Source of the DNA: Bacteroidota bacterium | Lineage (GTDB): Bacteria; Bacteroidota; Bacteroidia; Chitinophagales; LD1 | NCBI GenBank assembly: GCA_947476645.1 | Contig: CANJRM010000015.1 | Location: 1-48,595 of the forward strand | Direction: 5' to 3' | Length of the DNA: 48,595 nt | Part shown: piece by piece, positions 6,730-48,595 of the stretch | Layout: every line of letters starts with the position of its first letter | Numbering within the stretch: position 1 is the stretch's first letter | Program-made: the position numbers and the translations under genes | Notes under the pieces: generated by a model | Database searches by the model: none | Told to the model about the DNA's origin: nothing | The model's input: the letters and a program-made list of their open reading frames with translations, nothing else

Positions 6730-8355
6730 TTGACCAAAATCGGTTTTTATTTCTTGCTGTTGTTCGCGCTATTTGCCTACGCGCTCAACCTGCGTTTAGA
6801 TGTAATGGAAGTAGATGCTGCGCAGTACGCGCAAATGAGTTGGCAAATGTTGCACGACAAAGAGTTCTTGCAAATTCATTGCGGGCAAAATACTTACTTA
6901 GATAAGCCGCCACTTTTATTTTGGTTGAATTCTCTAAGTTTCTGGTTGCTCGGCATCAGTAATTTTTCATACAAACTTCCTTCATTGCTTTTCGCATTGC
7001 TGGGAATCTACTCCAACTATCGCTTCTCAAAAATTTATTACACTGAAAAAATTGCGCAAACTACCGCGCTCATGCTGGCTAGTTCGCAAGCGATGTTTCT
7101 AATGACCAACGATGTGCGCACAGATACCATGCTCATGGGCGCGGTGATATTTTCTATCTGGCAATGGGCGCAGTTTTTTGAAACTTCAAAAACAAAAAAT
7201 CTTTTGCTCGGTAGTATGGGTGTCGCACTCGCGCTTCTTGCAAAAGGTCCTATCGGTTTAATCGTAACGGGTGCGGCATTGTTTCCTCATTTGTTATGGA
7301 AGAAAAAACTAAACCGGATTTTTGATGTGCGAATTGTGCTTTCCGTTTTTGTAATTGCGCTGTTACTTGCTCCTATGTGTATTGGCTTGTATCAGCAATT
7401 CGGCATGAAAGGTTTGAAGTTTTATTTCTGGACACAAAGTTTCGGACGCATAACCGGTGAAAGTGAATGGAACAATCATCCCGACCCATTCTTTTTAGTT
7501 CATAGCACTGCATGGGCATTTTTGCCATGGACGGTTTTCTTTTTTGTTGGATGGCTAAAATCTATTTGGAGTTTTGTGAGAAGTAAATTCTCGACAACAA
7601 CACAACCTGAAATTATTTCTCTCAGCGGTTTTACTTTGATTCTACTTTCTCTTTCACTCTCAAAATATCTACTGCCGCATTACATTTTTGTGGTGTTTCC
7701 TTTAGCTGCTGTTATTGCCGCTTCATATTTTGAAGAAGGAATGAACAATGCGCAGCTCAGAAAATTTATTGTTCCGCTTCAAAGCATTCTAATTTTCGGA
7801 TTGTGTTTGGTTGCTGCATTCTTGCAATACGCTTTCAAAGGCATTGAGCTGTTTTCGCTTTTGGTTTTGATAGCCATGCCAGTTTCGATTGGTGCTCTCT
7901 TTTTCAAAACAAAAAACTGGTTTTACGCTTCGGCTTTCGCTATCATTTATTTCAATGTATTGCTCAGCGGTTTTAATTACCCCGAGATTTTGAAGTATCA
8001 ACCGCAAAGCGAATTTGGAAAATACATGCACACACGGGCAGATGAGCAAATTGATTTTGTTTCCTATCAATCAGGCGTTAGTTTTTCACCTGTGTTTTAT
8101 GCGCAGCGTTTTTGTGCCGGTGAATTTACCGAGTGCGGAAAGTTGCATCAGTTTTTAGAGCAAAAAAAGAAGCTCTTTGTAATTACAAGTGAAAACGGAT
8201 TGGCAGATTTAAGGGCCGAAAACATTTCTTTCAAAATTATTTACGACAGAAAAACATTTCCTGTTTCTAAAATCAATGGAAGGTTTTTGAATCCCGCAAA
8301 ACGAGAGTCTGTCTGCGAAAAAATTTATTTGTTGGAAGCCGTAGCAGCGCAATAA
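6730..8355 (+). CDS. Glycosyltransferase family 39-type membrane protein (ArnT/PMT-like)
   Basis: A 541-residue integral membrane protein of the GT-C fold. The first loop holds the conserved acidic residues (MEVDAAQYAQMSWQ) and the YLDKPPLLFW motif seen in ArnT-like enzymes. Many hydrophobic helices follow, then a soluble C-terminal domain from about residue 430. These enzymes transfer a sugar from a lipid-linked donor to lipid A, protein or another lipid. The best start is TTG at 6730; I see no ATG close by. It is 48 bases after the reductase gene. Confidence 0.85.
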   Translation: MTKIGFYFLLLFALFAYALNLRLDVMEVDAAQYAQMSWQMLHDKEFLQIHCGQNTYLDKPPLLFWLNSLSFWLLGISNFSYKLPSLLFALLGIYSNYRFSKIYYTEKIAQTTALMLASSQAMFLMTNDVRTDTMLMGAVIFSIWQWAQFFETSKTKNLLLGSMGVALALLAKGPIGLIVTGAALFPHLLWKKKLNRIFDVRIVLSVFVIALLLAPMCIGLYQQFGMKGLKFYFWTQSFGRITGESEWNNHPDPFFLVHSTAWAFLPWTVFFFVGWLKSIWSFVRSKFSTTTQPEIISLSGFTLILLSLSLSKYLLPHYIFVVFPLAAVIAASYFEEGMNNAQLRKFIVPLQSILIFGLCLVAAFLQYAFKGIELFSLLVLIAMPVSIGALFFKTKNWFYASAFAIIYFNVLLSGFNYPEILKYQPQSEFGKYMHTRADEQIDFVSYQSGVSFSPVFYAQRFCAGEFTECGKLHQFLEQKKKLFVITSENGLADLRAENISFKIIYDRKTFPVSKINGRFLNPAKRESVCEKIYLLEAVAAQ

Positions 8356-9237: not shown

Positions 9238-10911
9238 CTATTTTACTAAAACCAATTTTTTTGTGCCCGTCACTTTTCCGTTTTCAGAAAGCGTGGCGCA
9301 ATAATTTCCTGCTGCAAGTGAAGAAAGTTTGAGCGTAGTTGTTTCATTTTGCAAAACTGTTTTAGAAACTACTTGTGCGCTTACATTGGTAATAGCAATC
9401 TGCTGGTCGCAGTAACCGTTGTTGCTTGTTTTTACAGTTACTTCTCCCTTCGCAGGATTCGGAAATAAGGAGAAAGTGTTTCCGTTTTGTGTTTGAACAA
9501 TTCCTGTTGCTGCTTCGGGTTCATAAATCCAAAACTCTCTTCCTGCATCGGTAAAGTTTGCAGGCACAATTACTTTGTTGCCCCACATTTTAAAATCAAA
9601 CACATCAAGCGTTCCGCAACCCGAAATAAAATTAAACGGATGCTCGGTATTTGCTCCCAGTGGCATAACTACCTGGGTGCCTGATTGCGTGCCATCGCTT
9701 TCCACAAACACTTGCTTGTTGCTTGCACTATCATATGCCTGAAAGAAAAATTTTCCGTTTGCACCTGCTAAGAAAGTTTGCTCACTGCCAAAAAAATTCG
9801 GAAGGATAAACCCGCTCATCGAAAATGTACTGTGCGAAAATCCATTGAGGTCAATGCTGTGAATTTGATTAGCGCCATCAGCAAAAAAATACAACTTGTC
9901 ATTAGCAAAACTCAAATTGGTAATCCAACTGTAAGCCGCACCAGGCATCAACTCAACTGGCGTGTTATTTCCTTCGCCTATTCTGAAAATATTTTGCGAA
10001 GTCATAGTTGATGCGGTGAAATAAACTGCATTGTTGTAGAGCTTCATATTAGTAGGATACGAATTTCCTCCCGTTGCAATTACAATTCGCTGAAGCGTGT
10101 CACCTACATTTCCGTTGAATGAAAACAAATCAAAACCTTGTCCACTTGTTGCTGCCACCAAAAACAATTTGTTGTTGAATGCCAACATTGATTCAGTGCT
10201 TATAATGTGATACGGAGTTGTAGCAAGATTCAGAATTTGTTCCGTGCCGGCTACAGTTCCATCAGTTCTCCATAATTCCTGATTGCCGTTTCCATTCGGA
10301 AGCAGGAAATAAACTTTGTTGTTCAATTCGCAGTAGCCAAAGCCTTGAGAGTAAGAACTGATTGCCTGAATTGAATCGGTTCCCGCAGCAGTGCCATCGG
10401 TAATTATCAATTGGTCTTGTGTGCAAAAAAGCAATCTGCTTCCCATCACCGAAATGTTTTGTGGAGACAGAGCGCCATTCCATGATTGATTGAGCTCAGC
10501 AATTTTTGTAGTGCCGTTGTCACTTCCATCGCTAGTCCATAAATCGTAATCGGAACCATTATCAGTTGCCATAAAGAAAAGTTTACCTCCTGCCACAGCA
10601 ATATTTCCAATACCTGCCGAGCCAGTTGCGTTTATTTCTTTCACCAGCGAAGTGCCGCCAGTAGTTCCATCGCTCATCCATAGTTCTGTATTGTCGGGCG
10701 CATTTTGTGCAGCGAAATAAAGTTTGCTGTTGAACTCGGCAAAGTTGTTCAACTCTCCCGCACCGTAAAATGTTTTTGCGCTGTCGGTAAAGAAAAAGCT
10801 TTGTGTGCCTTGAAGCGGATTAATTTCTATTAAAGAAAAATTTCCGATAGCCATTGTTGCCTGCGAAATTATCAGCAGTGCAAAAAAGATTTTAGTTGTT
10901 TTCATAATCAT
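9238..10911 (-). CDS. T9SS cargo protein with ELK/WxxDGTxxGT repeats
   Basis: A 557-residue secreted protein. It has a signal peptide, then repeats of the ELWMSDGTTGGT type (WxxDGTxxGT) through residues 70-430, which are expected to form a beta-propeller-like fold. A T9SS sorting domain closes it: FSLFPNPAKGEV, then AAGNYCATL, ending in KKLVLVK. It is probably exported to the cell surface; the function is unknown. A 22-bp gap separates its end from the AraC gene, so the two may share a transcript. Confidence 0.88.
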   Translation of the reverse strand: MIMKTTKIFFALLIISQATMAIGNFSLIEINPLQGTQSFFFTDSAKTFYGAGELNNFAEFNSKLYFAAQNAPDNTELWMSDGTTGGTSLVKEINATGSAGIGNIAVAGGKLFFMATDNGSDYDLWTSDGSDNGTTKIAELNQSWNGALSPQNISVMGSRLLFCTQDQLIITDGTAAGTDSIQAISSYSQGFGYCELNNKVYFLLPNGNGNQELWRTDGTVAGTEQILNLATTPYHIISTESMLAFNNKLFLVAATSGQGFDLFSFNGNVGDTLQRIVIATGGNSYPTNMKLYNNAVYFTASTMTSQNIFRIGEGNNTPVELMPGAAYSWITNLSFANDKLYFFADGANQIHSIDLNGFSHSTFSMSGFILPNFFGSEQTFLAGANGKFFFQAYDSASNKQVFVESDGTQSGTQVVMPLGANTEHPFNFISGCGTLDVFDFKMWGNKVIVPANFTDAGREFWIYEPEAATGIVQTQNGNTFSLFPNPAKGEVTVKTSNNGYCDQQIAITNVSAQVVSKTVLQNETTTLKLSSLAAGNYCATLSENGKVTGTKKLVLVK

Positions 10912-12075: not shown

Positions 12076-13729
12076 GCTGTGGCTGATAATTGACTTTGCG
12101 TCTAAATAGTTTGCTAAAAAACTGAACTTGGTCGCCACTCCAAAAAGCGGTCGGTTTCGATTCTTTAGTCTTCTTACCTATAGGGAGCATAATGGCCTTC
12201 TTCTGGTAGTTAAAGCCATTTACTGAAAAGGTTAGGTCAATATTATGGGTGCGGTCCTTAGCATTCCAGGTAACAAGGATATTCGCGCCGAGCTGATGAA
12301 GCAACTCCCGTTTTTCTTTAAACGCCATCTTATCCAATTCTTTGCGAACGTTCCATAATCCCTTAAGCCCTGCAAATAAATCTTCTGTTTGATTTTTGAT
12401 TTGTGCTAATGCCAGTCCCCGCTGCTCTTCATTTTTCAGTTTGCTCAGCAATATTTTTTTCTCTTTTTTAATTGCTGTATTTCGGCTATCAAAATTCTCA
12501 ATGTCTATCCGGCCAAGCTCATATAACTCAAATAGTTTTTGTTCCCTGACATCAAGCATATCAAGTTCAGACTTAAATCCTGCAATATCGTTATCAGATG
12601 TTTTGATGGCGGCATCATTACCATGTTCATTCCACTCAGATTGTATCTGAGATAAGTATTCACCGGAGTTTATTACTCTATCCCAAACAATAGCTTCGAG
12701 CCGGTCGAGATTTGGAGAGCGCAAGCCGCATGACTTGTAGCGCTTGGAGGAGCACATATAAGTTCGCTCATTTGATTTTATTTTACCATATAGATTTGCT
12801 CCACATACACCGCAGCGCAACAATCCTTTAAGTAGGTAATCATGAACGCCGTGGTTAAAGGCGCAGTTTCTGTTTTTTTTCAACTGTAGTTGCACTCTTT
12901 CCCATGTTTTCTCATCAATTATTTTTGGGGCAGGGTATATTTCACCTTTATACTTTCTTTCACCTTTATGGATAGGGCAGGTAAGTAGGCAATAAACTGT
13001 GCCTGGCCGCCAAACAAACTCCTCATTGGTAACCTGTCTAACGGAATTGGTATATCGGTTTCTAACCTTTGTGCCATTTAGCATAACCTTTCTTCCTCGT
13101 GTGGCAATATTCAGCGAGTTCAACTTCTTCGCGATAGTATTAGTTCCGTCCCCCGATAAACACCAAGCAACCATTTGTCGATAGATTTCTGCTTCTTCAT
13201 CATCTATGACCATAATTTTATTAGCATCCTTTCTATAACCGTAAGGGATTATCAATCCAATCCACCTCCCTTTTTTTACTGCCTCAATCATACCTCTGAT
13301 TGAACGAGCTGACTTTAAGCTGTTCTCCCTTTTATTGATAAGCGCCTTTATATCGGCCATGAATTCCTGGTCGTAATTGTTGTAATCAATGGAACCGGAT
13401 AGCGTATGGAGGATAATATTATGACGCATAAACTTAACCTTCAGTTTGGAGTGCAGTTCTGGGGAACGTGTCAACCGGTCAGTTTCAGTCACGAAAATAT
13501 CGGAAACCTCACCGGCATCAACCAACCGCAGCAATTCAGTAAGGGCCGGTCTGTTGCTGATGTCCTCATCCTTCGCGCTCTTGCCACCATCCTCATGCAA
13601 TTTATAGGTGAAGTCCAATTGCTTTGACTTTTCAATACCTGCAAGTTTCTGTGCCTGCAAGGAGTAACCTTGCAACTGCACATCCGAGCTTACCCGGCAA
13701 TAAATATGTAGAACTTTTTTTTCGTTCAT
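12050..13729 (-). CDS. Large serine recombinase (resolvase/integrase)
   Basis: A 559-residue site-specific recombinase. The N-terminal resolvase domain begins with the catalytic signature YCRVSS, with Ser14 the likely nucleophile, and contains FVTETDRLTRSP. A recombinase domain follows (IPYGYRKD, then a GTVYCLLTCPIHKGE segment), then a zinc-ribbon near residue 300 (CGVCGANLYG, later Cys residues), a coiled-coil stretch and a basic tail. This order fits large serine integrases of phages and mobile elements. It lies exactly at the break in the host T9SS gene and is the most likely integrase of the whole island. Confidence 0.92.
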   Translation of the reverse strand: MNEKKVLHIYCRVSSDVQLQGYSLQAQKLAGIEKSKQLDFTYKLHEDGGKSAKDEDISNRPALTELLRLVDAGEVSDIFVTETDRLTRSPELHSKLKVKFMRHNIILHTLSGSIDYNNYDQEFMADIKALINKRENSLKSARSIRGMIEAVKKGRWIGLIIPYGYRKDANKIMVIDDEEAEIYRQMVAWCLSGDGTNTIAKKLNSLNIATRGRKVMLNGTKVRNRYTNSVRQVTNEEFVWRPGTVYCLLTCPIHKGERKYKGEIYPAPKIIDEKTWERVQLQLKKNRNCAFNHGVHDYLLKGLLRCGVCGANLYGKIKSNERTYMCSSKRYKSCGLRSPNLDRLEAIVWDRVINSGEYLSQIQSEWNEHGNDAAIKTSDNDIAGFKSELDMLDVREQKLFELYELGRIDIENFDSRNTAIKKEKKILLSKLKNEEQRGLALAQIKNQTEDLFAGLKGLWNVRKELDKMAFKEKRELLHQLGANILVTWNAKDRTHNIDLTFSVNGFNYQKKAIMLPIGKKTKESKPTAFWSGDQVQFFSKLFRRKVNYQPQLHITEQAQ

Positions 13730-25599: not shown

Positions 25600-26043
25600 A
25601 TGGATAAACTATCAAAAGAGCAGAGGAGGAGAAATATGACAGCCGTTAAATCTACAGGCTCGAAAATCGAAACTACTTTAGCCAAGTCCCTATTTGCACG
25701 CGGACACCGGTATCGTAAAAATGACAAAACTGTTTTTGGCAAACCCGATTTGACATTTAAAAGACTTAAAATTGCGATATTCGTTGACAGCGAATTTTGG
25801 CACGGTAAAAATTGGGAAACAAAAAAATTTGACCTTAAAACCAATAAAGAATTTTGGTTAAAAAAAATTGAACGCAATATTGCGAGAGATAAGGAAGTAA
25901 ATTTGCAACTATTAAAAGACGATTGGGCTGTATTACGAATATGGGGTTCTGTAATAATGAAGGATATTGATGGTTGTGTGAAAGCAATCGAAAAGTTAAT
26001 ACACAAAAGGGAAAGAGAACTGAACTATGGCAAATTCAAATAA
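25600..26043 (+). CDS. vsr: Vsr-type very short patch repair endonuclease
   Basis: A 147-residue mismatch endonuclease that nicks at T:G mismatches made by deamination of 5-methylcytosine. The family pattern is seen: RRRNMTAVKSTGSKIE at the start, then a GKPDLTFKRLKIAIFVDSEFWHG segment split over the active site with the catalytic Asp, then KIERNIARDKEVN. The Cys residues of the E. coli Vsr zinc site (GCFWH...C and WECA) are replaced by Ser/Glu and Gly/Ser. It overlaps the following methyltransferase gene by 17 bases, which fits a functional pair. Confidence 0.93.
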   Translation: MDKLSKEQRRRNMTAVKSTGSKIETTLAKSLFARGHRYRKNDKTVFGKPDLTFKRLKIAIFVDSEFWHGKNWETKKFDLKTNKEFWLKKIERNIARDKEVNLQLLKDDWAVLRIWGSVIMKDIDGCVKAIEKLIHKRERELNYGKFK

Positions 26044-27109
26044 AAAACAGCCTTCGACAACACTTCGCTTCATTGATTTGTTTGCAGGCATTGGCGGCAT
26101 TCGATTGGGATTTCAAAAAGCTGCGGAGGAATTACAAGTTGGTGCAGAGTGTGTTTATACAAGTGAGATTGATGCCCAAGCATGCAAAACTTACAGTAGT
26201 AATTTTCCGTGTGATAACCATAATCCTCTAAATAGCATCACCGAAATTGATGAAAAAAAATTACCTGATTTCGATGTTTTACTCGCTGGCTTTCCATGTC
26301 AGGCATTTTCAATAGCCGGTAAAAGAGGAGGATTCGAAGATACGCGCGGAACTCTTTTTTTTGATGTAGCACGTATCATAAAAGAAAAAAAACCAAAGGC
26401 ATTTCTGCTCGAAAATGTAAAGGGTCTCGTTAATCATAAGGGGGGCAAAACGCTATCCACCATTCTAAATGTTTTGGAAAATGAGTTGGGCTATAAGTCA
26501 ACTCAATTTAAAGTCTTGAACGCACGGAATTACGGCTTGGCGCAAAATCGCGAGCGAATTTATATTGTAGGGTTTAAAGAAGGTGGGGGAGGTTTTAAAT
26601 ATCCGAGTTCAACCGACAGTTCAAAATGTATCGGGGATATTATTGAATCCGAAACCGTTAGCGTAAAGTATTATTTGTCGGAGACGTATGTCGCCTCAAT
26701 GCGCAAGCATAAAGAAAGACACCAGTCTAAAGGGAATGGTTTCGGGTATGAAATAAAAAAATACACGGACGTTGCCAACGCTGTTGTAGTGGGCGGAATG
26801 GGGAAAGAAAGGAATCTGCTTATAGATAAGCGTCTAACGGACTTCAATCCAATTACTCACATAAAAGGCAAAGTAAACAGAGAAGGTATAAGAAGAATGA
26901 CACCGACAGAATGGGAAAGACTTCAAGGCTTTCCTGATACTTGGACAGCTTGTGTTGCAGATGCCTCTCGGTATAAGCAGTTGGGGAATTCCGTTGCTGT
27001 TCCTGTAATCCAGAGTCTTTGTTTAAATATAATTCCAGAAATTTTAAACCCGATTCCGTTCGCAAAGAAAAAGGAACCCCAAATATCTCTCTTCGCGAAT
27101 GAAATCTGA
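26027..27109 (+). CDS. DNA cytosine-C5 methyltransferase 1 of the R-M block
   Basis: A 360-residue methyltransferase. Motif I is DLFAGIGGIRLGF, the catalytic Cys91 is in AGFPCQAFS, motif VI is LLENVKGL, motif VIII is GLAQNRERIYIVGF, and the final motifs are WERLQGFP and QLGNSVAVPV. The target-recognition region lies around residues 190-290. It overlaps vsr upstream by 17 bases and the second methyltransferase downstream by 11 bases, so the three form one translation-coupled unit. Confidence 0.94.
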   Translation: MANSNKKQPSTTLRFIDLFAGIGGIRLGFQKAAEELQVGAECVYTSEIDAQACKTYSSNFPCDNHNPLNSITEIDEKKLPDFDVLLAGFPCQAFSIAGKRGGFEDTRGTLFFDVARIIKEKKPKAFLLENVKGLVNHKGGKTLSTILNVLENELGYKSTQFKVLNARNYGLAQNRERIYIVGFKEGGGGFKYPSSTDSSKCIGDIIESETVSVKYYLSETYVASMRKHKERHQSKGNGFGYEIKKYTDVANAVVVGGMGKERNLLIDKRLTDFNPITHIKGKVNREGIRRMTPTEWERLQGFPDTWTACVADASRYKQLGNSVAVPVIQSLCLNIIPEILNPIPFAKKKEPQISLFANEI

Positions 27110-27932
27110 GTTCAAGTTTATTGATTTATTCTCTGGTATAGGAGGATTTCATTCGGGTCTATCTTCTTTAGGCGGCGAGTGTGTAATGGCGTCTGATATT
27201 CATCCTGCCGCAAATGAAACTTATTATCGAAATTATGGTTTGAGACCAATGGGCGATATAACGAAGGTAGAATCTAAAGCAATACCGAAGTTTGATTTAC
27301 TGTGCGCGGGATTTCCATGTCAGTCGTTTAGTAACATCGGGCCGAGAGGCGGCTTGAATGATTCAAGAGGAGAATTAGTATATGAAATATTTAGAATTCT
27401 TGAAGACAAAAAACCGAAAGCATTTATTCTCGAAAACGTAAAAGGATTAGTTTCTCATGATGGCGGAAAAACATTTTCTTATATTATTCAGACATTAAAT
27501 CAATTGAATTATGAAGTGCAGTATAAAATTTTAGAGGCTAAAGATTATGGTCTTCCTCAGATAAGAAAAAGATTATTTATAGTTGGGGTTCATAAATCCA
27601 TAAAAAAGAAGTTTGAGTTTCCTCAACCTACCAAATTAAAATATACGCTTTCTAAAGTTTTAGGAGGTAAGGTCGAAAGAGATTACGCATTCACAATTAG
27701 AATTGGAGGAAGAGGGTCCGGCATCAATAATCGGTTTAACTGGGATTCGTATATGGTTGATGGGGTTGTTCGCGTAATTACTCCTGAAGAATGTCTTTTG
27801 TTACAAGGCTTCAAAAAATCATTTAAACTTTCTGGCAAGACGAACGAAAAATATTATCAGGTAGGGAATACGGTTCCTGTTTCGGTAGTAAATGCAATCG
27901 GAAAACAACTGATAAGCGCAGGAATTATTTAG
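27099..27932 (+). CDS. DNA cytosine-C5 methyltransferase 2 of the R-M block
   Basis: A 277-residue methyltransferase. Motif I is DLFSGIGGFHSGL, the catalytic Cys74 is in AGFPCQSFS, motif VI is ILENVKGL, motif VIII is LPQIRKRLFIVGV, and the last motifs are LLLQGF and YQVGNTVPVSVV. It is short, with a small recognition domain around residues 170-235 that includes TIRIGGRGSG. Two different C5 enzymes side by side usually mean an asymmetric recognition site with each enzyme treating one strand, which is inference here. Confidence 0.93.
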   Translation: MKSEFKFIDLFSGIGGFHSGLSSLGGECVMASDIHPAANETYYRNYGLRPMGDITKVESKAIPKFDLLCAGFPCQSFSNIGPRGGLNDSRGELVYEIFRILEDKKPKAFILENVKGLVSHDGGKTFSYIIQTLNQLNYEVQYKILEAKDYGLPQIRKRLFIVGVHKSIKKKFEFPQPTKLKYTLSKVLGGKVERDYAFTIRIGGRGSGINNRFNWDSYMVDGVVRVITPEECLLLQGFKKSFKLSGKTNEKYYQVGNTVPVSVVNAIGKQLISAGII

Positions 27933-40477: not shown

Positions 40478-41122
40478 TTACTTAGATGAGTCAATCTGAA
40501 TGGCTCGCCTTATCTGCCATATCAAACGTTCACGTGACCCTTTATCTAAAGCTCGTTGACCGGATAGCATTGAACTAAAGAAAACAGGTATTCCGTTCCA
40601 TCTGTAAGTTCCAATTTCATCGTCAAAAGTAAATTCATAATCAAGCCATACATCCTGATTTTTGGCTTTATCCTTTTCCTTACCAAGAAATATTCCCGCC
40701 AATACATTCGATACTACAATAACTTTAGGACCCGCCAGTCGAATGAGCTTATCGGATAGCTCCAGTTGTTTAGAGATAAATGGCACCCCGTTTTGTTGCC
40801 TCAGAATTTTATGGATGTAGCTTTGGTCGGTTTCTCGCAGGAATAACAAATCAAGATGGGTCCAGTCGGTGTCACATAGTGTGGCAACTTCGTTAAGCTT
40901 CTTGAAATATGGTATTTTATTGTCTGTTTTTTCCAAAGGATAGCTTATTACGTGAGCAGTATCATCGGAGTAGCCAGGATTTATACCTATGAAAAGTAGA
41001 ACGTTTGTATCAATAGTTTCTGGGTATAAAAAGTTCCGTTCGTTTAAAAGATGCGTAAATGACTCCTCCTGCCAAATTTCTTTTAGGTCTTCCTCAATGT
41101 GAGCTTTTGTTTCTAATACCAT
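40478..41122 (-). CDS. Uracil-DNA-glycosylase-like protein
   Basis: About 214 residues from the Met at 41122 (MVLETKAHIEED). The motif LLFIGINPGYSDD is the N-terminal signature of the UDG superfamily. In the C-terminal part VFFSSMLSGQRALDKGSRER sits where the catalytic His-Pro-Ser loop would be, and no His is seen there. So this is a UDG-fold protein, possibly without base-excision activity. It may bind modified bases or nucleotides. It is convergent with the protease gene, with 130 bases between. Confidence 0.65.
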   Translation of the reverse strand: MVLETKAHIEEDLKEIWQEESFTHLLNERNFLYPETIDTNVLLFIGINPGYSDDTAHVISYPLEKTDNKIPYFKKLNEVATLCDTDWTHLDLLFLRETDQSYIHKILRQQNGVPFISKQLELSDKLIRLAGPKVIVVSNVLAGIFLGKEKDKAKNQDVWLDYEFTFDDEIGTYRWNGIPVFFSSMLSGQRALDKGSRERLIWQIRRAIQIDSSK

Positions 41123-41159
41123 ACCAATGTTTTGGATGAGCAATTAAATAAAATACGAA

Positions 41160-41396
41160 TTAGGCACCAAGGCTTAACGCGTCAAACAGCACTTCCTTAT
41201 CATCGTAGAGAAATGCGGCAACATTATTCGGAAGGACTAAAAGAATCCGGCCGTCATTAAATTGGTAAGGGGTGTATTGTAATCCTGCTGCCTTAATGAT
41301 GCTGGTGAGATGCACCTCAATCGTTCCTCCGTATTTTGCTATTCCCTTCTCAATGTGTTCGGGGGAAACTGATACTACACCTTTATTGTTTTTCAT
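41160..41396 (-). CDS. Small hypothetical protein
   Basis: 78 residues with no recognised family (KGIAKYGGTIEVHLTSIIKA, then RILLVLPNNVAAFLYDDKE). It has beta-rich strands and an acidic end. It lies 37 bases upstream of the UDG-like gene on the same strand and 79 bases from the end of the kinase gene. It may belong to the UDG-like gene's transcript. Confidence 0.45.
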   Translation of the reverse strand: MKNNKGVVSVSPEHIEKGIAKYGGTIEVHLTSIIKAAGLQYTPYQFNDGRILLVLPNNVAAFLYDDKEVLFDALSLGA

Positions 41397-41475: not shown

Positions 41476-41994
41476 TTAATTAAGTTGGCGATAAATTTTT
41501 TCTGCTGTCTGCATTGGTAAAAGTCCTGTCGTATCAATTTGAAATTCTGTGTCGTATTTTATTTTTATCACATCGTCATTTAATCGTTTGCAAATTCCGA
41601 AATCTCTGAACTCTTCGTTTGAACGCAACTCTAATCTTCTTCTCAACTCGTCATCGGTTGTGAATAGTCCGAAAACTTTCATTGAAAGGTCTTTGTCCAA
41701 TTGATAAAGTGCGTCAAGATATTTATTGATTTTATCTCCGCTGAAAGTGTCAACGACAATTACAGGATTGAAACCAAATTTGAGAAAGTCATAAACTAAA
41801 CCTGTTGACACTTGTAAGAGGTTGATGTGTTCTTGTTGATTTTTCCAATCAACCGAAATTACCATTTGTCGTAAAGTGTCAACTTCCAACCTCACACCCT
41901 TAGGAAAAAATTGAGATAAGCTTTTCGCTGTTTGCGATTTGCCCGAAGCAGGACAACCTCTAAGAATTATTATGTCAATTTTTTCGTCTTGCAT
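41476..41994 (-). CDS. P-loop kinase (polynucleotide-kinase/zeta-like)
   Basis: 172 residues from the Met at 41994, whose ATG overlaps the stop of the radical SAM gene (TAATG). The Walker A motif is GCPASGKSQTAKS at residues 13-25, a LEVDTLRQM acidic motif follows, then PVIVVDTFSG as Walker B-like, and RRRLELRSNEE as a LID-like Arg cluster. It resembles small polynucleotide, zeta or nucleotide kinases. As the last gene of a four-gene operon with a radical SAM enzyme and a glycosyltransferase, it may phosphorylate a small molecule or RNA. Confidence 0.8.
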   Translation of the reverse strand: MQDEKIDIIILRGCPASGKSQTAKSLSQFFPKGVRLEVDTLRQMVISVDWKNQQEHINLLQVSTGLVYDFLKFGFNPVIVVDTFSGDKINKYLDALYQLDKDLSMKVFGLFTTDDELRRRLELRSNEEFRDFGICKRLNDDVIKIKYDTEFQIDTTGLLPMQTAEKIYRQLN

Positions 41995-43019
41995 TAGTTG
42001 AATAGAAGTGTTTGCGGTTTGTTGCACGACATATTTTTGCAAGGGAAATCACAAGTCTTCATGATTTTAGAAATCTCTGTTGAACGCTTAGTGGAAAGTA
42101 TTTCAATAATGTCTTGCTTGGCAATGTTACCCAATGGTTGTTTGGCCAATGGAATTCTACGGTGGTCAAAACATTTTACAACATCACCGTTTGGATAAAC
42201 GCAAATGTTTTTTCGTGCTGCACATGGTGTGTCATTATCGTAATTTACTTTTTCGGTTGTTGTTGGATTGCGCCAATTGTAAGCACCGAAGTCCTGATAG
42301 AATTGTGTGTTGTGTTGAATACCTTGTTGCTTACACCACTCAATTACTTTTGGAATTTCTTCTGCTGATTCTTTTGAAAGCACTGATTGAATTCTAAGTT
42401 GGTCGCCTAAAATTTCTTTTGCAAGCATAATCTTAGGCATTACAATGTCAAAATTTATTTTGCCTCTGAACTCATTCCATTTTTCTCTCTCAACTGAATC
42501 AACTGAAATTACAAGTATGTGTCCAAGCTGTTTGTATCTCGTTAAAAATTCCTCGTCAAGAAATCTTGCGTTTGAAACTATTACCATTGGAACATCTAAC
42601 TTCTTTGCTTCTTCGGCTATGAGCATTACATCTCTTTTGAAAAGTAGCGGTTCGCCTCCGGTCAATGTAACTTGATATAAATTGTGATGAAGTCTTTTTA
42701 AGCAAGTGATAAAATGCTCAATCATTAAATGTTGGTCTCTCGGTTCTGGCTTTTCCCAAATTCCACATTTGGGGCAACGGTCATTACATGCGTTTGTAAT
42801 CATGTAAATAAGTTCGTTGCCTTTCACTCCGTAAAATCTTCTGATTGGAGTTTTATACCACCTGTAAATACTCCACTCAATTGTCTTGAGCAAAACCATA
42901 GGAGCAACTAAGAGAGGATTCTTCACTCTCTTTGCGAATGGTCGCATCTCTCCAAGGTAATCACCGATTACATGAGTAACTCCTTGCTTGTTTTTTTTAA
43001 GACTGTATATTAGACTCAT
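41994..43019 (-). CDS. Radical SAM enzyme with SPASM-like C-terminus
   Basis: A 341-residue protein. The 4Fe-4S motif CNDRCPKC lies at residues 78-85, followed by the GGEPLL and VISVDS strands of the TIM barrel. The C-terminal part holds further Cys residues (CAARKNICVYPNGDVVKCFDH, then CDFPCKNMSC), as in SPASM or twitch domains for auxiliary clusters. The N-terminal 60 residues are hydrophobic and basic (MVLLKTIEWSIYRWYK), perhaps a membrane-associated helix. Its start overlaps the upstream GT2 gene by 23 bases, and it runs into the kinase gene. Confidence 0.9.
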   Translation of the reverse strand: MSLIYSLKKNKQGVTHVIGDYLGEMRPFAKRVKNPLLVAPMVLLKTIEWSIYRWYKTPIRRFYGVKGNELIYMITNACNDRCPKCGIWEKPEPRDQHLMIEHFITCLKRLHHNLYQVTLTGGEPLLFKRDVMLIAEEAKKLDVPMVIVSNARFLDEEFLTRYKQLGHILVISVDSVEREKWNEFRGKINFDIVMPKIMLAKEILGDQLRIQSVLSKESAEEIPKVIEWCKQQGIQHNTQFYQDFGAYNWRNPTTTEKVNYDNDTPCAARKNICVYPNGDVVKCFDHRRIPLAKQPLGNIAKQDIIEILSTKRSTEISKIMKTCDFPCKNMSCNKPQTLLFN

Positions 43020-43770
43020 GGATGTTTCCTTTATAAATTGATTCTGATGCGTCCCACATTAAAACGGTGTGTCCCTCGTAAACGGTGGCACTTGAACTTT
43101 TATACTTCTTAAACAACTTCATAAACTTGTTGAAACCTGAAATAGAATTTTTGTAACCGTAGTCGTGCCACAACTTTGCTTCAGGGCAAAAGCCAATTTT
43201 ATATTTGCTACGCATACGCAAACACAAATCAACATCTTCACCTGCTGCTGTCGGAAATCTTTCGTCAAAACCGAACTGCTCAACAACAAAAGATTTGATT
43301 CCGAAATTTAATGAAGGCATATACCACAACTCTTTTCTGTCGGGGAGTAACCACTTGCCTGCAAGTGTTCCGTTAATGTCGTGGTAATAATCAAGAAGCG
43401 TTTTGCCCCACGAATAAGTCATTCCTCCAACTGCACCGAAATCGGATTGCATAAGGAACGAAGTCATTTTTTCATTCCACTCTTTATCTAAAATACAATC
43501 GTGGTCGGTGAACAAAAGACAATCAGCACCTGCGGTGCTGATTGCTTTTTCTATTCCGATGTTTCTTGCTCTTGCAGGTCCACCGTTTTCGTCTAATGCT
43601 GTGAAGTCAACGAAGTCGTGTTTGAGTTTATACTTTAATGGGCTTGCATCGTCAATGAGATAAACCTTGTCAAAGCGTTGCGTTTGATTTTGCACGCTGT
43701 CAAGCAACCTGTCAAGACAGTTAATGTCCCACTGTGTTTTGATGTAACAAGGAATAATTAAGGCGGTCAT
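42997..43770 (-). CDS. Family 2 glycosyltransferase (GT-A fold)
   Basis: A 257-residue cytoplasmic glycosyltransferase. It has an IPCYIK start, LIDDASP (nucleotide-sugar site), NGGPARARNIGI, the metal-binding LLFTDHDC (Asp89/His90/Asp91) and the catalytic-loop TAAGEDVDLCLRMR. It has no membrane segment of its own. It overlaps the radical SAM gene by 23 bases. Alone it could be a surface-polysaccharide enzyme, but its tight coupling to a kinase and a radical SAM gene suggests it modifies a specific target in this operon. Confidence 0.9.
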   Translation of the reverse strand: MTALIIPCYIKTQWDINCLDRLLDSVQNQTQRFDKVYLIDDASPLKYKLKHDFVDFTALDENGGPARARNIGIEKAISTAGADCLLFTDHDCILDKEWNEKMTSFLMQSDFGAVGGMTYSWGKTLLDYYHDINGTLAGKWLLPDRKELWYMPSLNFGIKSFVVEQFGFDERFPTAAGEDVDLCLRMRSKYKIGFCPEAKLWHDYGYKNSISGFNKFMKLFKKYKSSSATVYEGHTVLMWDASESIYKGNIHESNIQS

Positions 43771-43803
43771 TTTACCGTTGTTTTATTCGCAATAATGTTC
43801 ATG

Positions 43804-45744
43804 TCATGTCCATAAACTAATGTTGCCCTTTAATTTTTGCAAATATTTTCTGTAACTGCTTTTCCTTCTTTTAAAAATCCAGGTCACAATCTTTTTGTAT
43901 TTGAGTAAGGGAAAGAGGTCAGAAATTATCAAGCAACATAATCCAATAATGTCTGCAACACTGTCGGTTAAATTTGTAACACTTATACTTAGTTTGTAAA
44001 TAGAATAACCCGTTGCAGAAACAAGTCCCAACAGTAAAACATGAAAGAGAATTAGAAACGAATAAAATTCAAACCATGCCAAAGCCTTTGCTGGTCTTTT
44101 CTTTTTTACCCACTCTGCCGCATCTCTTTTTCTAAGTTCTTCTTTTGCAAGTTCACCCTCTTCAACTTTTCGCAGCAAGACGCTTTTTTCTTGTAAATGC
44201 TTTTCAATGTTGTCATCGTTTAAGAAAGCTAACGATTCGTCAATTATGGCTGGGGTAATATCTTCTGGTTTGATTGCCCTCTCTCTTAAATCATAGTTTA
44301 ATGAAATAGCTTGTTCCTTAGTTATTTCTCCTCGCTTAAATTTTTCGGTGAGTCTTGTGTACTCTTTTGAAACAGTATGTTTCAATTGTGTGGAAAGGAC
44401 AATTTGTGCTTTCGTGATAATGTCAAAAGACTTGGGAAGATTTGCTTTGTCGCTAAATCCTTTTTTGAGTTTAAACCAAAATTTATCAGTGATAAAATCA
44501 ATGCCAGTCGCAAATGGAATATCTCTTTCATTTATTTTGACTGCGTTGTTGTGAGCCAAAAAATGGGCAACATAGTTACCTGATAATAGAATAAAACCAG
44601 TCCGTTCAAAACCATTACTGCTCACTCCCTTTCTTAGAGCATTTATCTTTGTGTAAAGTTTTAGATAGTGGATACATTCTTCCTCGTCAAAATATTTGTT
44701 TCTTTCTGCTGATTGCTTCCTTAAACTTTCTAAAACTTTTTCTCCTTCGACTATGTAAACGTGGTTTTTGTAGTAGTCAACTCTTTCTTCTTGGTTAATT
44801 CCTTTATACTTTAACTCTTGAAAAAATTTTGACTTCTTAGCTAAAATTTCACTTGGTGTTTTGCACCCGTTCACGATTGATTGCATTGCTGTTTTTGCAG
44901 GATTAAGGTTGGTTTGTCCTTCTACAATTTTTTCACCTACATAGAAAAAGCCATCTACCTCTGATTTTGTTTCATCAAAATATTTTAGTTCAATTTTCTT
45001 TTTCCCTCCTTTATTCTTGCTGCTTTGATTTATGTCATGAACCAACTTGAAGAAATCATCAAATATTTCAGAATACAGAATACCATTATAGCCAACGGCA
45101 TTGAACAAATGCTCGGTGTCAAGAAAGATTGTCATTTCGGAATTCCAAGTTCCTAAGTCATTGAGGTCTGCTGTGTATCTAATACCTGTATAAAGTATCA
45201 AACCCTCCTTGATAGCGTTTAACCTTTCCGTGAAATGAGGTTCGGATTGTTTTTCAATTATGAAAAAACTTATGTATTGCAAATACTTGTCTGAAACATT
45301 ATCATCAAGAAGGTAGGCGTTGAAATTGGAATTTAATTCCGCTCTTTCATTTTCGTTTAGTTTCTTTTCTTGTTTTGATTCCATGTATGAAACCAAATCT
45401 TCAAAAGTATTGGAATAGTTAGTTTGAGCTTGAGTAAACTCAATTGTCAATTTATCTTCTTTCTTTATCTCTTCGGATGTTACAGTATAAATGCCATTCT
45501 CAAATGATAAGACTCCGTCTCGTTTTAAACGGTTTTTTAAAACAGATTTAATAACTCCATCAGGTAGTTTGAAATCAAAGGTCTTTTCTAAAAGTTGCGA
45601 AACATCAGATGCGTTGAATGTCCATTTAGCTTCTGAAACAATTGCCGCTTTAATAAACTCACCAATGACATCATAAATGTCCTTTTTATTGTCGTAGAGT
45701 TCACTGAAAAGTGCAACTGAAGCAAGTATTTTATTCTCTTTCAT
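43804..45744 (-). CDS. Large membrane protein with a PIN-like region, first gene of operon
   Basis: A 646-residue protein of no family I can name. Residues 45-90 look like a winged helix (LLEKTFDFKLP, then FENGIYTVTS). Residues about 200-265 read TIFLDTEHLFNAVGY, then DDFFKLVHDI, then FDETKSEVDGFFYVG, with acidic residues spaced as in PIN nucleases (Asp209, Asp257, Glu258). The C-terminal 90 residues have two or three transmembrane helices, with a basic tail. It is 33 bases upstream of the GT2 gene. It may be a membrane-tethered nuclease; that is inference. Confidence 0.75.
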   Translation of the reverse strand: MKENKILASVALFSELYDNKKDIYDVIGEFIKAAIVSEAKWTFNASDVSQLLEKTFDFKLPDGVIKSVLKNRLKRDGVLSFENGIYTVTSEEIKKEDKLTIEFTQAQTNYSNTFEDLVSYMESKQEKKLNENERAELNSNFNAYLLDDNVSDKYLQYISFFIIEKQSEPHFTERLNAIKEGLILYTGIRYTADLNDLGTWNSEMTIFLDTEHLFNAVGYNGILYSEIFDDFFKLVHDINQSSKNKGGKKKIELKYFDETKSEVDGFFYVGEKIVEGQTNLNPAKTAMQSIVNGCKTPSEILAKKSKFFQELKYKGINQEERVDYYKNHVYIVEGEKVLESLRKQSAERNKYFDEEECIHYLKLYTKINALRKGVSSNGFERTGFILLSGNYVAHFLAHNNAVKINERDIPFATGIDFITDKFWFKLKKGFSDKANLPKSFDIITKAQIVLSTQLKHTVSKEYTRLTEKFKRGEITKEQAISLNYDLRERAIKPEDITPAIIDESLAFLNDDNIEKHLQEKSVLLRKVEEGELAKEELRKRDAAEWVKKKRPAKALAWFEFYSFLILFHVLLLGLVSATGYSIYKLSISVTNLTDSVADIIGLCCLIISDLFPLLKYKKIVTWIFKRRKSSYRKYLQKLKGNISLWT

Positions 45745-46099: not shown

Positions 46100-47188
46100 A
46101 TGAAACCAATAAAATTTACAAGAAACGAACTTTACAATTTAGTATGGCGGGAATCGCTGCCGTCACTTTCGAAAAAATACGACATTACTTATAGTGATTT
46201 GCGAAAGACGTGTGTTGCCATGAATATTCCTTTGCCGAAGGCTGGTTACTGGCAAAACCTGTGGTTGGGAAAACAGGTGCCGGTTGAGCCGCTGCCCGAA
46301 ACGTCTACTGGTCAACAGGAAGCAACTTTAAATTTTTTGGAAGAAGGTGATGAGCGCACAGTGAAGAGTAAGGCAGCAGCAAAAATACAGAAGGAAAAGA
46401 TAGAGGAAGACCCGAAGTTGAACTTTACAGTTCCAAGTAAAATTTCCAAACCAGATGCTTTAGTAGAAGCCGCAAGAAAAGACTTGCTGAATAAAAAATC
46501 TTGGGGTTTCGGACATGGTGCCGGCTTGGTTATGTGCTCAGGTAACATCTTTGATATTAGCGTCTCACCACAAAATGTTGGTCGCGCCCTTAGGTTTATG
46601 GATGCTTTTATTAAACTATTAAAAAGCCGCAGCAACAGTATAATTACAGAACACGGAAAGACTTACGCAGTGGTTGAAGGAGAAAAAGTAAAAATTAGCA
46701 TTAAGGAGAAATCTAAGCGTTTTGTAATTAAGGAGACCAGTGGATATGAAAACTCGGAATATAAGCCGACCGGTGTTATGTCCTTTAAGATGGTAATATT
46801 CTATAAAGACACTGAGTGGAAAGATGGTAAGCACTCTTTAGAAGACCAGCTTTCTCTAATTGTTTCTACGATGGAGGTTAAAGCAAGGGAGCATAAGCAA
46901 GAAATGTTGCGTTGGGAAAAAGAAAGGGAGAAAGATGCAGAAGAAAGACGACTCATCCGTGAACGGGAAGAGCGAAAGGCAAAGGAACTGGCCGCCTTTA
47001 AACGTTTATTAGATGAGGCTCAAGAATGGCATCGTGTCGCCATACTCAGGGAATACATTGATAAAGTGGAGGCGAGGGCTATTGCAAAAAGTGGAGCCTC
47101 CGAAGACTTGAAAACTTGGTTATCGTGGGCGCGAGGAATGGCAGACGCACATGACCCTCTGAATAATGACTATAAACCTTATTTTTAG
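46100..47188 (+). CDS. Hypothetical protein with N-terminal HTH, mobile-element type
   Basis: A 362-residue protein. The first 55 residues carry a helix-turn-helix-like unit common to an uncharacterised family found in many islands: FTRNELYNLVWRESLPSLSK, then DLRKTCVAMNIPLPKAGYW. The middle has a long region with beta segments; the C-terminal 100 residues are a charged coiled coil (EKEREKDAEERRLIRERE) ending with SWARGMADAHDPL, also typical for that family. A DNA-binding role is likely; the target is unknown. It is the first gene in the repeat-flanked cassette. Confidence 0.75.
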   Translation: MKPIKFTRNELYNLVWRESLPSLSKKYDITYSDLRKTCVAMNIPLPKAGYWQNLWLGKQVPVEPLPETSTGQQEATLNFLEEGDERTVKSKAAAKIQKEKIEEDPKLNFTVPSKISKPDALVEAARKDLLNKKSWGFGHGAGLVMCSGNIFDISVSPQNVGRALRFMDAFIKLLKSRSNSIITEHGKTYAVVEGEKVKISIKEKSKRFVIKETSGYENSEYKPTGVMSFKMVIFYKDTEWKDGKHSLEDQLSLIVSTMEVKAREHKQEMLRWEKEREKDAEERRLIREREERKAKELAAFKRLLDEAQEWHRVAILREYIDKVEARAIAKSGASEDLKTWLSWARGMADAHDPLNNDYKPYF

Positions 47189-48486: not shown

Positions 48487-48595
48487 TCAATACAAGAGCT
48501 TAACTTCTCTAACTTGCGGCTCCAAACGTTTCAACTCCGGCAATGACACAACAAGCTTCATCTTCAACAACTCCATATTACACCGTAAGCGATGT
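48487..48595 (-). CDS. 3' end of a gene (runs off the right edge)
   Basis: The minus-strand frame is open from the window edge to a stop at 48487 and reads MELLKMKLVVSLPELKRLEP, then QVREVKLLY. A possible ATG lies at 48574-48576, but the frame is open further upstream, so the real start is probably beyond the window. The same tail is duplicated at 45956-46039. No family is recognised. The pattern of silent and conservative changes between the two copies supports that this is coding. Confidence 0.5.
   Translation of the reverse strand, partial: HRLRCNMELLKMKLVVSLPELKRLEPQVREVKLLY
48503..48570. repeat. 68-bp direct repeat, right copy
   Basis: The matching copy to 45972-46039. It lies inside the 3' end of the open frame at the right edge, so the cassette seems to have inserted at, or been duplicated with, that gene end, as with elements that target gene 3' ends. 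Confidence 0.85.

Follow-up and report, generated by a model that had tools for sequence, protein, structure and literature searches.

The 48,595-nucleotide contig CANJRM010000015.1 of the Bacteroidota assembly GCA_947476645.1, analysed over its whole length and termed the window below, carries three consecutive genes for a GT2 glycosyltransferase, a radical SAM/SPASM enzyme (rSAM) and a P-loop kinase-like protein, and these form a self-contained three-gene biosynthetic cassette that is kept as a unit in other genomes. The gene that precedes them, which encodes a protein of 646 residues (P646), is independent of this trio, and the two pieces merely adjoin here. We regard it as reasonably probable that the region as a whole is made of two such independent pieces, the trio being a transferred biosynthetic cassette and P646 a separate accessory gene. 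In what follows, trio stands for the GT2–rSAM–kinase genes, and L with a number for the numbered trio or related loci. The features of the region are:

43804..45744, (-) strand: P646 gene, 646 aa, with hydrophobic C-terminal stretches; a neighbour outside the conserved unit
43771..43803, (-) strand: 33-nt gap between the P646 and GT2 genes; homology to other trio loci starts at the GT2 end, 43774-43770
42997..43770, (-) strand: GT2 (GT-A fold) glycosyltransferase gene, 257 aa, from Pfam, a structural model and invariant residues
41994..43019, (-) strand: radical SAM/SPASM enzyme gene, 341 aa, from Pfam and invariant cysteines
41476..41994, (-) strand: P-loop kinase-like gene with ATG at 41994, from Pfam and invariant residues
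45966..46039, (+) strand: 74-bp repeat upstream of the P646 gene, with a second copy at 48497-48570 (93%)

The GT2 and rSAM open reading frames (ORFs) overlap by 23 nt, and the rSAM stop is joined to the kinase start as TAATG, the TTG start listed for the kinase at 42042 being a longer alternative to the ATG at 41994. An initial annotation of this DNA had described all four genes as tightly packed, three of them with overlaps; this stands for the trio but not for the P646 gene, which lies on the same strand with nothing between, 33 nt away and without overlap. The enzyme identities that it had proposed are all borne out above Pfam cut-offs, GT2 matching Glycos_transf_2 (2.7e-14), rSAM matching both Radical_SAM (1.5e-16) and SPASM (3e-05), and the kinase matching AAA_33 (1.5e-08; 35.5 vs 27 bits) and CPT (5e-06; 26.9 vs 22 bits). 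Scans for promoters and terminators are uninformative, since the counts in the region are near expectation (19 promoter-like and 5 terminator-like sites, where chance would give 14.3 and 3.3); the Bacteroidota-type promoter pattern occurs 4 times against 3.26 expected, with none on the operon strand. The P646 gene may share a transcript with the trio in the window.

The unity of the trio is evident from its distribution. A pattern scan for the rSAM protein across 84,980 species, each represented by a single genome, can reach only close relatives; it yielded 28 rSAM loci, and at 24 of these the GT2, rSAM and kinase ORFs stand in that order, mostly overlapping or adjoining. The proposal that a kinase, a glycosyltransferase and a radical SAM enzyme belong together is thus strongly supported. 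At L013 and L037 the trio is cut by contig ends, and at two archaeal loci, L026 and L027, a methyltransferase-like ORF takes the place of the kinase. Among the 24 loci with the complete order, GT2 is split in L019 and cut by the contig start in L023; elsewhere GT2 is matched only to residue 182 (L033) and rSAM lies in two ORFs (L021). The hosts belong to Bacteroidota, Chlorobiota, Verrucomicrobiota, Planctomycetota, Myxococcota/delta, Pseudomonadota, candidate division LCP-89 and archaea, the seven archaeal loci comprising three labelled Methanoperedens or Methanoperedenaceae, three labelled ‘uncultured archaeon’ and one labelled Euryarchaeota. DNA homology between the trio loci and the window, which stands at 88% for L011, is confined to 43774-41466, in other words from the start of GT2 to the end of the kinase.

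Widely scattered as it is, the trio is rare, and a few of its copies are broken. Relatives of rSAM were found in 1/296 genomes of a sample of the phylum (the window's own genome; E 1e-30), in 2/348 of the order (the window's own and G010, of the same genus; E 1e-15) and in 6/185 of the order of Methanoperedens, the distant G776 among them, while samples of the phyla surrounding the L024 and L020 hosts gave 1/294 and 1/288, the host itself each time. Seventeen of 18 host genomes hold one copy and one holds two, with nothing else at E 1e-20. Neither plasmid records (1e-20) nor phage records (1e-10) contain rSAM relatives, and viral contigs contain no relatives of rSAM or GT2 at the limits used; carriage by viruses or plasmids was rejected on these grounds.

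The three enzymes are under selection, because their catalytic residues are invariant in the aligned rows and the ratios of non-synonymous to synonymous change (dN/dS) are low. In GT2, D89/D91 and E178/D179, which cover the DxD motif and the catalytic acid, are invariant in 22/22 rows of bacteria and archaea, over which the mean column identity is 80%. The rSAM cysteines C78, C82 and C85 (CX3CX2C), together with cysteines 266, 283, 323, 327 and 332 of the SPASM region, are invariant in 25/25 rows, and an N-terminal segment of ~65 residues is conserved. For the kinase, in which Walker A is present, G13, G18, K19, D39, R42 and D82 are invariant in 25 rows. Between the window and L011, L012 and L015, dN/dS is 0.037-0.089 for GT2, 0.049-0.065 for rSAM and 0.116-0.149 for the kinase. 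The link between GT2 and rSAM is old, since both are paired in the distant locus L066 (genome G776, from the order of Methanoperedens), where rSAM is 35% and GT2 36% identical and another rSAM is present, in the order rSAM–rSAM–GT2. At L029 a short second rSAM ORF overlaps GT2 and is 49% identical to the first rSAM of L066 over 134 residues. Taken together, these two loci make GT2 and rSAM look like an old core and the third gene like a tailoring function. A segment shared between the N-termini of rSAM and the distant GT2 was dropped, its score being reached by 372/1000 shuffles.

P646 has a separate distribution. Among the trio genomes searched it is present only in the window's own, with no relative at E 1e-10 in the 19 other trio genomes searched (the host of L011 was not included) and none in the available sequence of the 28 trio loci. 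The search for the same gene set in other genomes, as initially proposed, recovers the trio at 24/28 loci and P646 at 0/28. Relatives of P646 do occur elsewhere: in 7/72,556 plasmid records, at 21.7-40% identity (Pantoea, Duffyella, four Citrobacter and Klebsiella), in 1/50,697 phage records (a Helicobacter pullorum prophage), in one other of 40 related genomes, on one IMG/VR contig, and, when two of the plasmid relatives served as queries, in 4 and in 2 of the 5,426 E. coli genomes. The trio was not found at the 8 regions examined of the 14 plasmid, phage and E. coli records with P646 relatives, its absence being judged by BLAST for the first five and for the related genome and by annotation for three E. 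coli loci; the PLSDB gene tables for the plasmid regions are incomplete. In E. coli FDAARGOS_1337 the relative sits between the tail sheath and tail-fibre assembly genes of an apparent P2-like prophage, which we take to be the place of P2 gene Z/fun. The P2 defence hotspot described in PMC9122126 lies at the cos site, unlike this relative. P646 is a single-gene accessory gene, probably of defence type to judge by its places elsewhere; like single-gene defence genes of prophages and plasmids, its relatives sit singly between P2-like prophage genes and on plasmids, but unlike known defence genes it has no match above cut-off in PADLOC or Pfam.

The claim that all four genes act as one operon system, in which the membrane protein would sense or execute and the trio would make a signal or modification, is highly improbable on this evidence. 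It has in its favour the common strand and the 33-nt gap with nothing between; against this, the P646 family is absent from 19/19 other trio genomes and from the sequences of 28/28 trio loci, its relatives lack the trio in the regions examined, and homology stops at the start of GT2, so that the four-gene reading is already largely refuted. The composition proposed for P646, a winged helix with a PIN-like region and membrane helices, is not confirmed as to the winged helix and the PIN-like region. P646 has no profile match above cut-off in Pfam, NCBIfam or PADLOC (none even at E 1 in PADLOC), although one of seven relatives touches the HamA1 model at 4e-4. The structure prediction that had been suggested was run with AlphaFold2 on two sequences and gave a poor model: with a mean predicted local distance difference test score (pLDDT) of 40.7, reaching 60-80 only in parts of residues 21-180, the model was not used for a fold search. 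Membrane helices are compatible with two hydrophobic C-terminal stretches at about 554-614. D209, E262 and W423 are invariant in 7/7 aligned proteins of the family, and D209/E262 together with the hydrophobic stretches would be compatible with, although no proof of, a PIN-like domain plus membrane helices.

To return to the trio, it appears to have spread widely by horizontal transfer, judging from its distribution, trees, junctions and repeats. Phyla are mixed in the trees, in which starred branches force at least three changes for Bacteroidota with rSAM and with the kinase. Over 12 loci the GC content of the trio spans 0.318 to 0.656, never more than about 0.13 away from that of its flanks, and many of the transfers are, in view of this closeness, probably not recent. 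Three of the occurrences are less open to mis-binning: Anaeromyxobacter oryzae (a complete genome), Magnetospirillum molischianum (an isolate) and a 3.49-Mb Phycisphaeraceae contig from a metagenome-assembled genome (MAG).

That the trio forms a putative integron gene cassette is well supported for three Bacteroidota loci, L011, L015 and L016, and unproven elsewhere. These loci share a common leader starting GTTACCGGCAAGC and have palindromic repeats of ~130 bp around the trio. RNAalifold, applied to nine repeat copies, gives 25 pairs, 15 of them with at least one two-sided change (uncorrected for relatedness), with the AAC and GTT arms outermost; when copies were folded singly, three of four beat shuffles (z -2.5 to -3.2) and the fourth gave -0.6. 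Searched with a covariance model, the three loci show 12 sites on the plus strand at E <= 4e-6, 3 of which lie outside the building set; a further 4 matches, which are weaker, fall on the opposite strand of these palindromes. In L016 the site at 7064-7195 ends at the trio leader and that at 9526-9648 covers the kinase end, and the between-site ORFs of >100 aa share one direction. In this regard the loci resemble integron cassettes and integron-integrase-free attC clusters (CALINs): AAC...GTT-armed repeats follow the trio and other genes, homology starts at GTT, and the L016 array runs in one direction. They differ in that the cassette is multi-genic, that the hosts of L015 and L016 have no integrase over the cut-off, and that the window copy is free of such repeats. 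An integron integrase exceeds the family cut-off in 2/19 genomes, the hosts of L022 and L019, and in 0/14 controls, all of which have weaker recombinase matches; the host of L011 was not searched and the window's genome has none. Since there is array structure while integrases are limited to the hosts of L022 and L019, the sites are here named attC-like. Archaeal integrons exist, although the main text of PMC9668308, where they are described, does not mention Methanoperedens.

Several observations weigh against a widely transferred cassette of this kind. Sites of the attC-like kind are absent from the other 28 of 31 sources searched, the window and the archaeal loci included, and neither the L015 host nor the L016 host has an integron integrase above the family cut-off. 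The GT2 tree, which is less resolved (4/19 branches starred), forces only one Bacteroidota change, and the GT2, rSAM and kinase trees conflict in places. Most loci come from MAGs, so some of the cross-phylum cases may be mis-binned contigs that add to the mixing; and of the safer cases, the GT2 match of Anaeromyxobacter oryzae ends at residue 182, while the rSAM frame of Magnetospirillum molischianum is broken. Lastly, the methyltransferase label of L026 and L027 comes from motifs judged by eye, NCBIfam being silent on the L026 ORF.

Other repeats and junctions near trio copies were considered. The four 67-bp repeats of L024 (315-381, 4015-4081, 5876-5942 and 9545-9611, one of them at the 3' end of the trio) were rejected as attC for want of AAC...GTT arms. 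L022 (9648-11409) and L038 (9657-9731) have near-identical trio blocks (94.5%) under differently named phyla, and L022 has an extra ~1.6 kb after the trio, ending in a second repeat copy; their repeats were not counted, having the AAC...GTT arms inside an outer stem. Nor were the four 130-bp repeats of L031, which start just after the trio (9677-9806, 9995-10124, 12097-12226 and 13071-13200), as these were judged by eye only. At L028 (6611-7249) a 212-aa ORF, absent from L027, lies between flank and trio; the L027/L028 junction was rejected as attC, having a short direct repeat instead.

As regards function, the trio most likely makes a glycoside that its radical SAM enzyme modifies and that then receives a phosphate (or methyl) cap. 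With a nucleotide sugar as donor, the GT-A enzyme would transfer a hexose to an acceptor, whereupon the radical SAM/SPASM enzyme would oxidise, epimerise or cross-link the sugar or the acceptor through auxiliary Fe-S chemistry, and the kinase would phosphorylate the product as the last tailoring step, for which the methyltransferase-like gene would substitute in the two archaeal loci. The GT2 model (pLDDT 73.6; residues 132-150 and 222-257 low) has the GT-A fold, and its top Foldseek matches, which include a Leptospira glycosyltransferase, AvpGT, RmlT, TarP and GalNAc transferases, are too mixed for the acceptor to be named; sequence-profile matches of GT2 to the PDB are weak, the best at 7.8e-4. 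For the kinase the nearest PDB chain by profile is BH3686 (9.3e-10), followed weakly by a Leishmania AAA protein, Pnkp1, adenylate kinase and PSTK. Two candidates for the product are equally serious, namely a glycan or glycolipid on the surface of the producing cell and a small molecule, soluble and glycosylated, that resembles a nucleoside or cyclitol; either might well be right without being probable. A modified peptide or protein is unlikely, some other product has a slimmer chance, and a nucleic acid is very improbable.

In literature searches for the set and its components we recognised no described system that combines GT2, rSAM/SPASM and kinase, in agreement with the first assessment, and the rival readings draw on partial likenesses to known ones. 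That the trio decorates a surface glycan, hiding it from phage or predators, is possible, if on the unlikely side. GT2 with kinase or methyltransferase-like tailoring would suit such a role, the structural matches include teichoic-acid and rhamnosyl transferases, and the distant GT2 has a weak relative (28%) on a Gloeothece plasmid, where glycosyltransferase, LicD and sulfotransferase genes surround it. At no fewer than three of the 28 loci the trio has sugar-nucleotide genes as neighbours: nucleotide-sugar dehydrogenase, GalU-like and epimerase-like genes at L025, and epimerase-like fragments at contig ends at L020 and L029. Dispersal as separate genes in polysaccharide clusters, which had initially been named as refuting the finding, is not seen among these close relatives: the trio genes stay together, their neighbours are not conserved between most loci, and beyond the epimerase group no sugar-type neighbour recurs. 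No other sugar-type family stands among the best 25 of 102 Pfam families for 89 neighbours, a weak negative given that the other 80 neighbours were incompletely Pfam-scanned. A SPASM radical SAM enzyme would also be unusual in such a pathway, and archaea are among the hosts.

That the trio makes an antiviral small molecule, along the lines of viperin and its kinase, is a somewhat more doubtful proposition. Defence-type neighbours (type I restriction genes adjoining the trio in L011; within the array of L016, a D12 methylase gene and genes of GmrSD type; and, in PADLOC hits not mapped to loci, models for restriction, AbiE and DpdF) speak for it, as does a trio that is patchy, mostly single-copy and sometimes broken; but the neighbour enrichment comes without a control set, many PADLOC models are generic ones for methylases and helicases, and the absence, at the limits used, of rSAM relatives from viral contigs, phages and plasmids, and of GT2 relatives from viral contigs, tells against it. 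The trio shares with prokaryotic viperin (pVip) and its kinase a radical SAM core, a kinase neighbour and defence-type settings. However, the match of rSAM to the PADLOC viperin models (E 2.3e-17) covers only the shared core at residues 72-188, the trio has a SPASM domain and a GT2, and its kinase is CPT/AAA_33-like; membership of the viperin family was rejected on the NCBIfam score (59.7 vs 180 bits, over residues 72-180 only), the core-only coverage and the SPASM domain. AvpGT, a nucleoside 3'-O-glucosyltransferase as characterised in PMC11959488, is the second-ranked Foldseek match of GT2, but the PDB matches at E<=0.001 number 698 in all. AvpGT and NucGT, both nucleoside 3'-O-glucosyltransferases, are like GT2 in family, GT-A fold and high Foldseek rank, but only 18% identical, and no nucleoside pathway genes were noticed near the trio, no search having been aimed at them. 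The broader idea that the trio is a new cross-domain mobile defence module, making a radical-SAM-altered phosphorylated or methylated glycoside and passing from one domain to the other in part as an integron cassette of three genes, is one that we would rather bet against. A pathway for a ribosomally synthesised and post-translationally modified peptide (RiPP), in which rSAM and GT2 would act on a short peptide, is quite improbable. The mycofactocin system, with the radical SAM/SPASM enzyme MftC and the GT2 MftF, is the obvious parallel, given the SPASM domain and given that MftF is the best NCBIfam match of GT2 (E 1.9e-16); but this match is below the family cut-off (60 vs 280 bits), as the scores are in general, by far, and the trio has an extra kinase. 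A RiPP precursor beside the trio was rejected: over 26 loci, the window among them and some having short flanks, the only small-ORF matches to recur less than 700 bp from the trio belong to the attC-like repeats, to the epimerase, to pairs of close sister loci, or to scattered GC-rich flanks in which two loci agree; no profile search was made for accessory genes of the Mft type.

Returning to the reading of two independent pieces, a trio that is strongly conserved yet rare and patchy implies a useful product needing no host-specific partner, and identifying that product could reveal a novel radical SAM reaction, with sugars or small molecules as substrates. To judge by the arrays in Bacteroidota, an entire short pathway may travel in an integron-type cassette. 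The adjacency of P646 is also a caution that a tidy operon need not be one system and that other genomes should be checked.

The description of the setting in the window as defence-rich is fair, in that 4/10 other ORFs tested match PADLOC (two type II methyltransferase-like, one HNH and one PDC-S11-like), while the three flanking ORFs at 40478-41143, 41160-41396 and 46100-47188 have no PADLOC match. The 74-bp repeat of the window has no attC-like fold and folds no better than shuffles, and the covariance model, run on the window alone, gives one chance-level match (E 2.2). The second copy of the 74-bp repeat stands at the contig end, and the same stretch recurs in contigs C80 and C148 of this genome, at their bases 51-124, a pattern suggestive of a branch point in the assembly. 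Further off, two type II methyltransferase-like ORFs, at 26027-27109 and 27099-27932, are adjacent and overlapping on the same strand, and the ORF at 36363-37187 matches PDC-S11 with its C-terminal half and PD-T4-3 with its N-terminal part.

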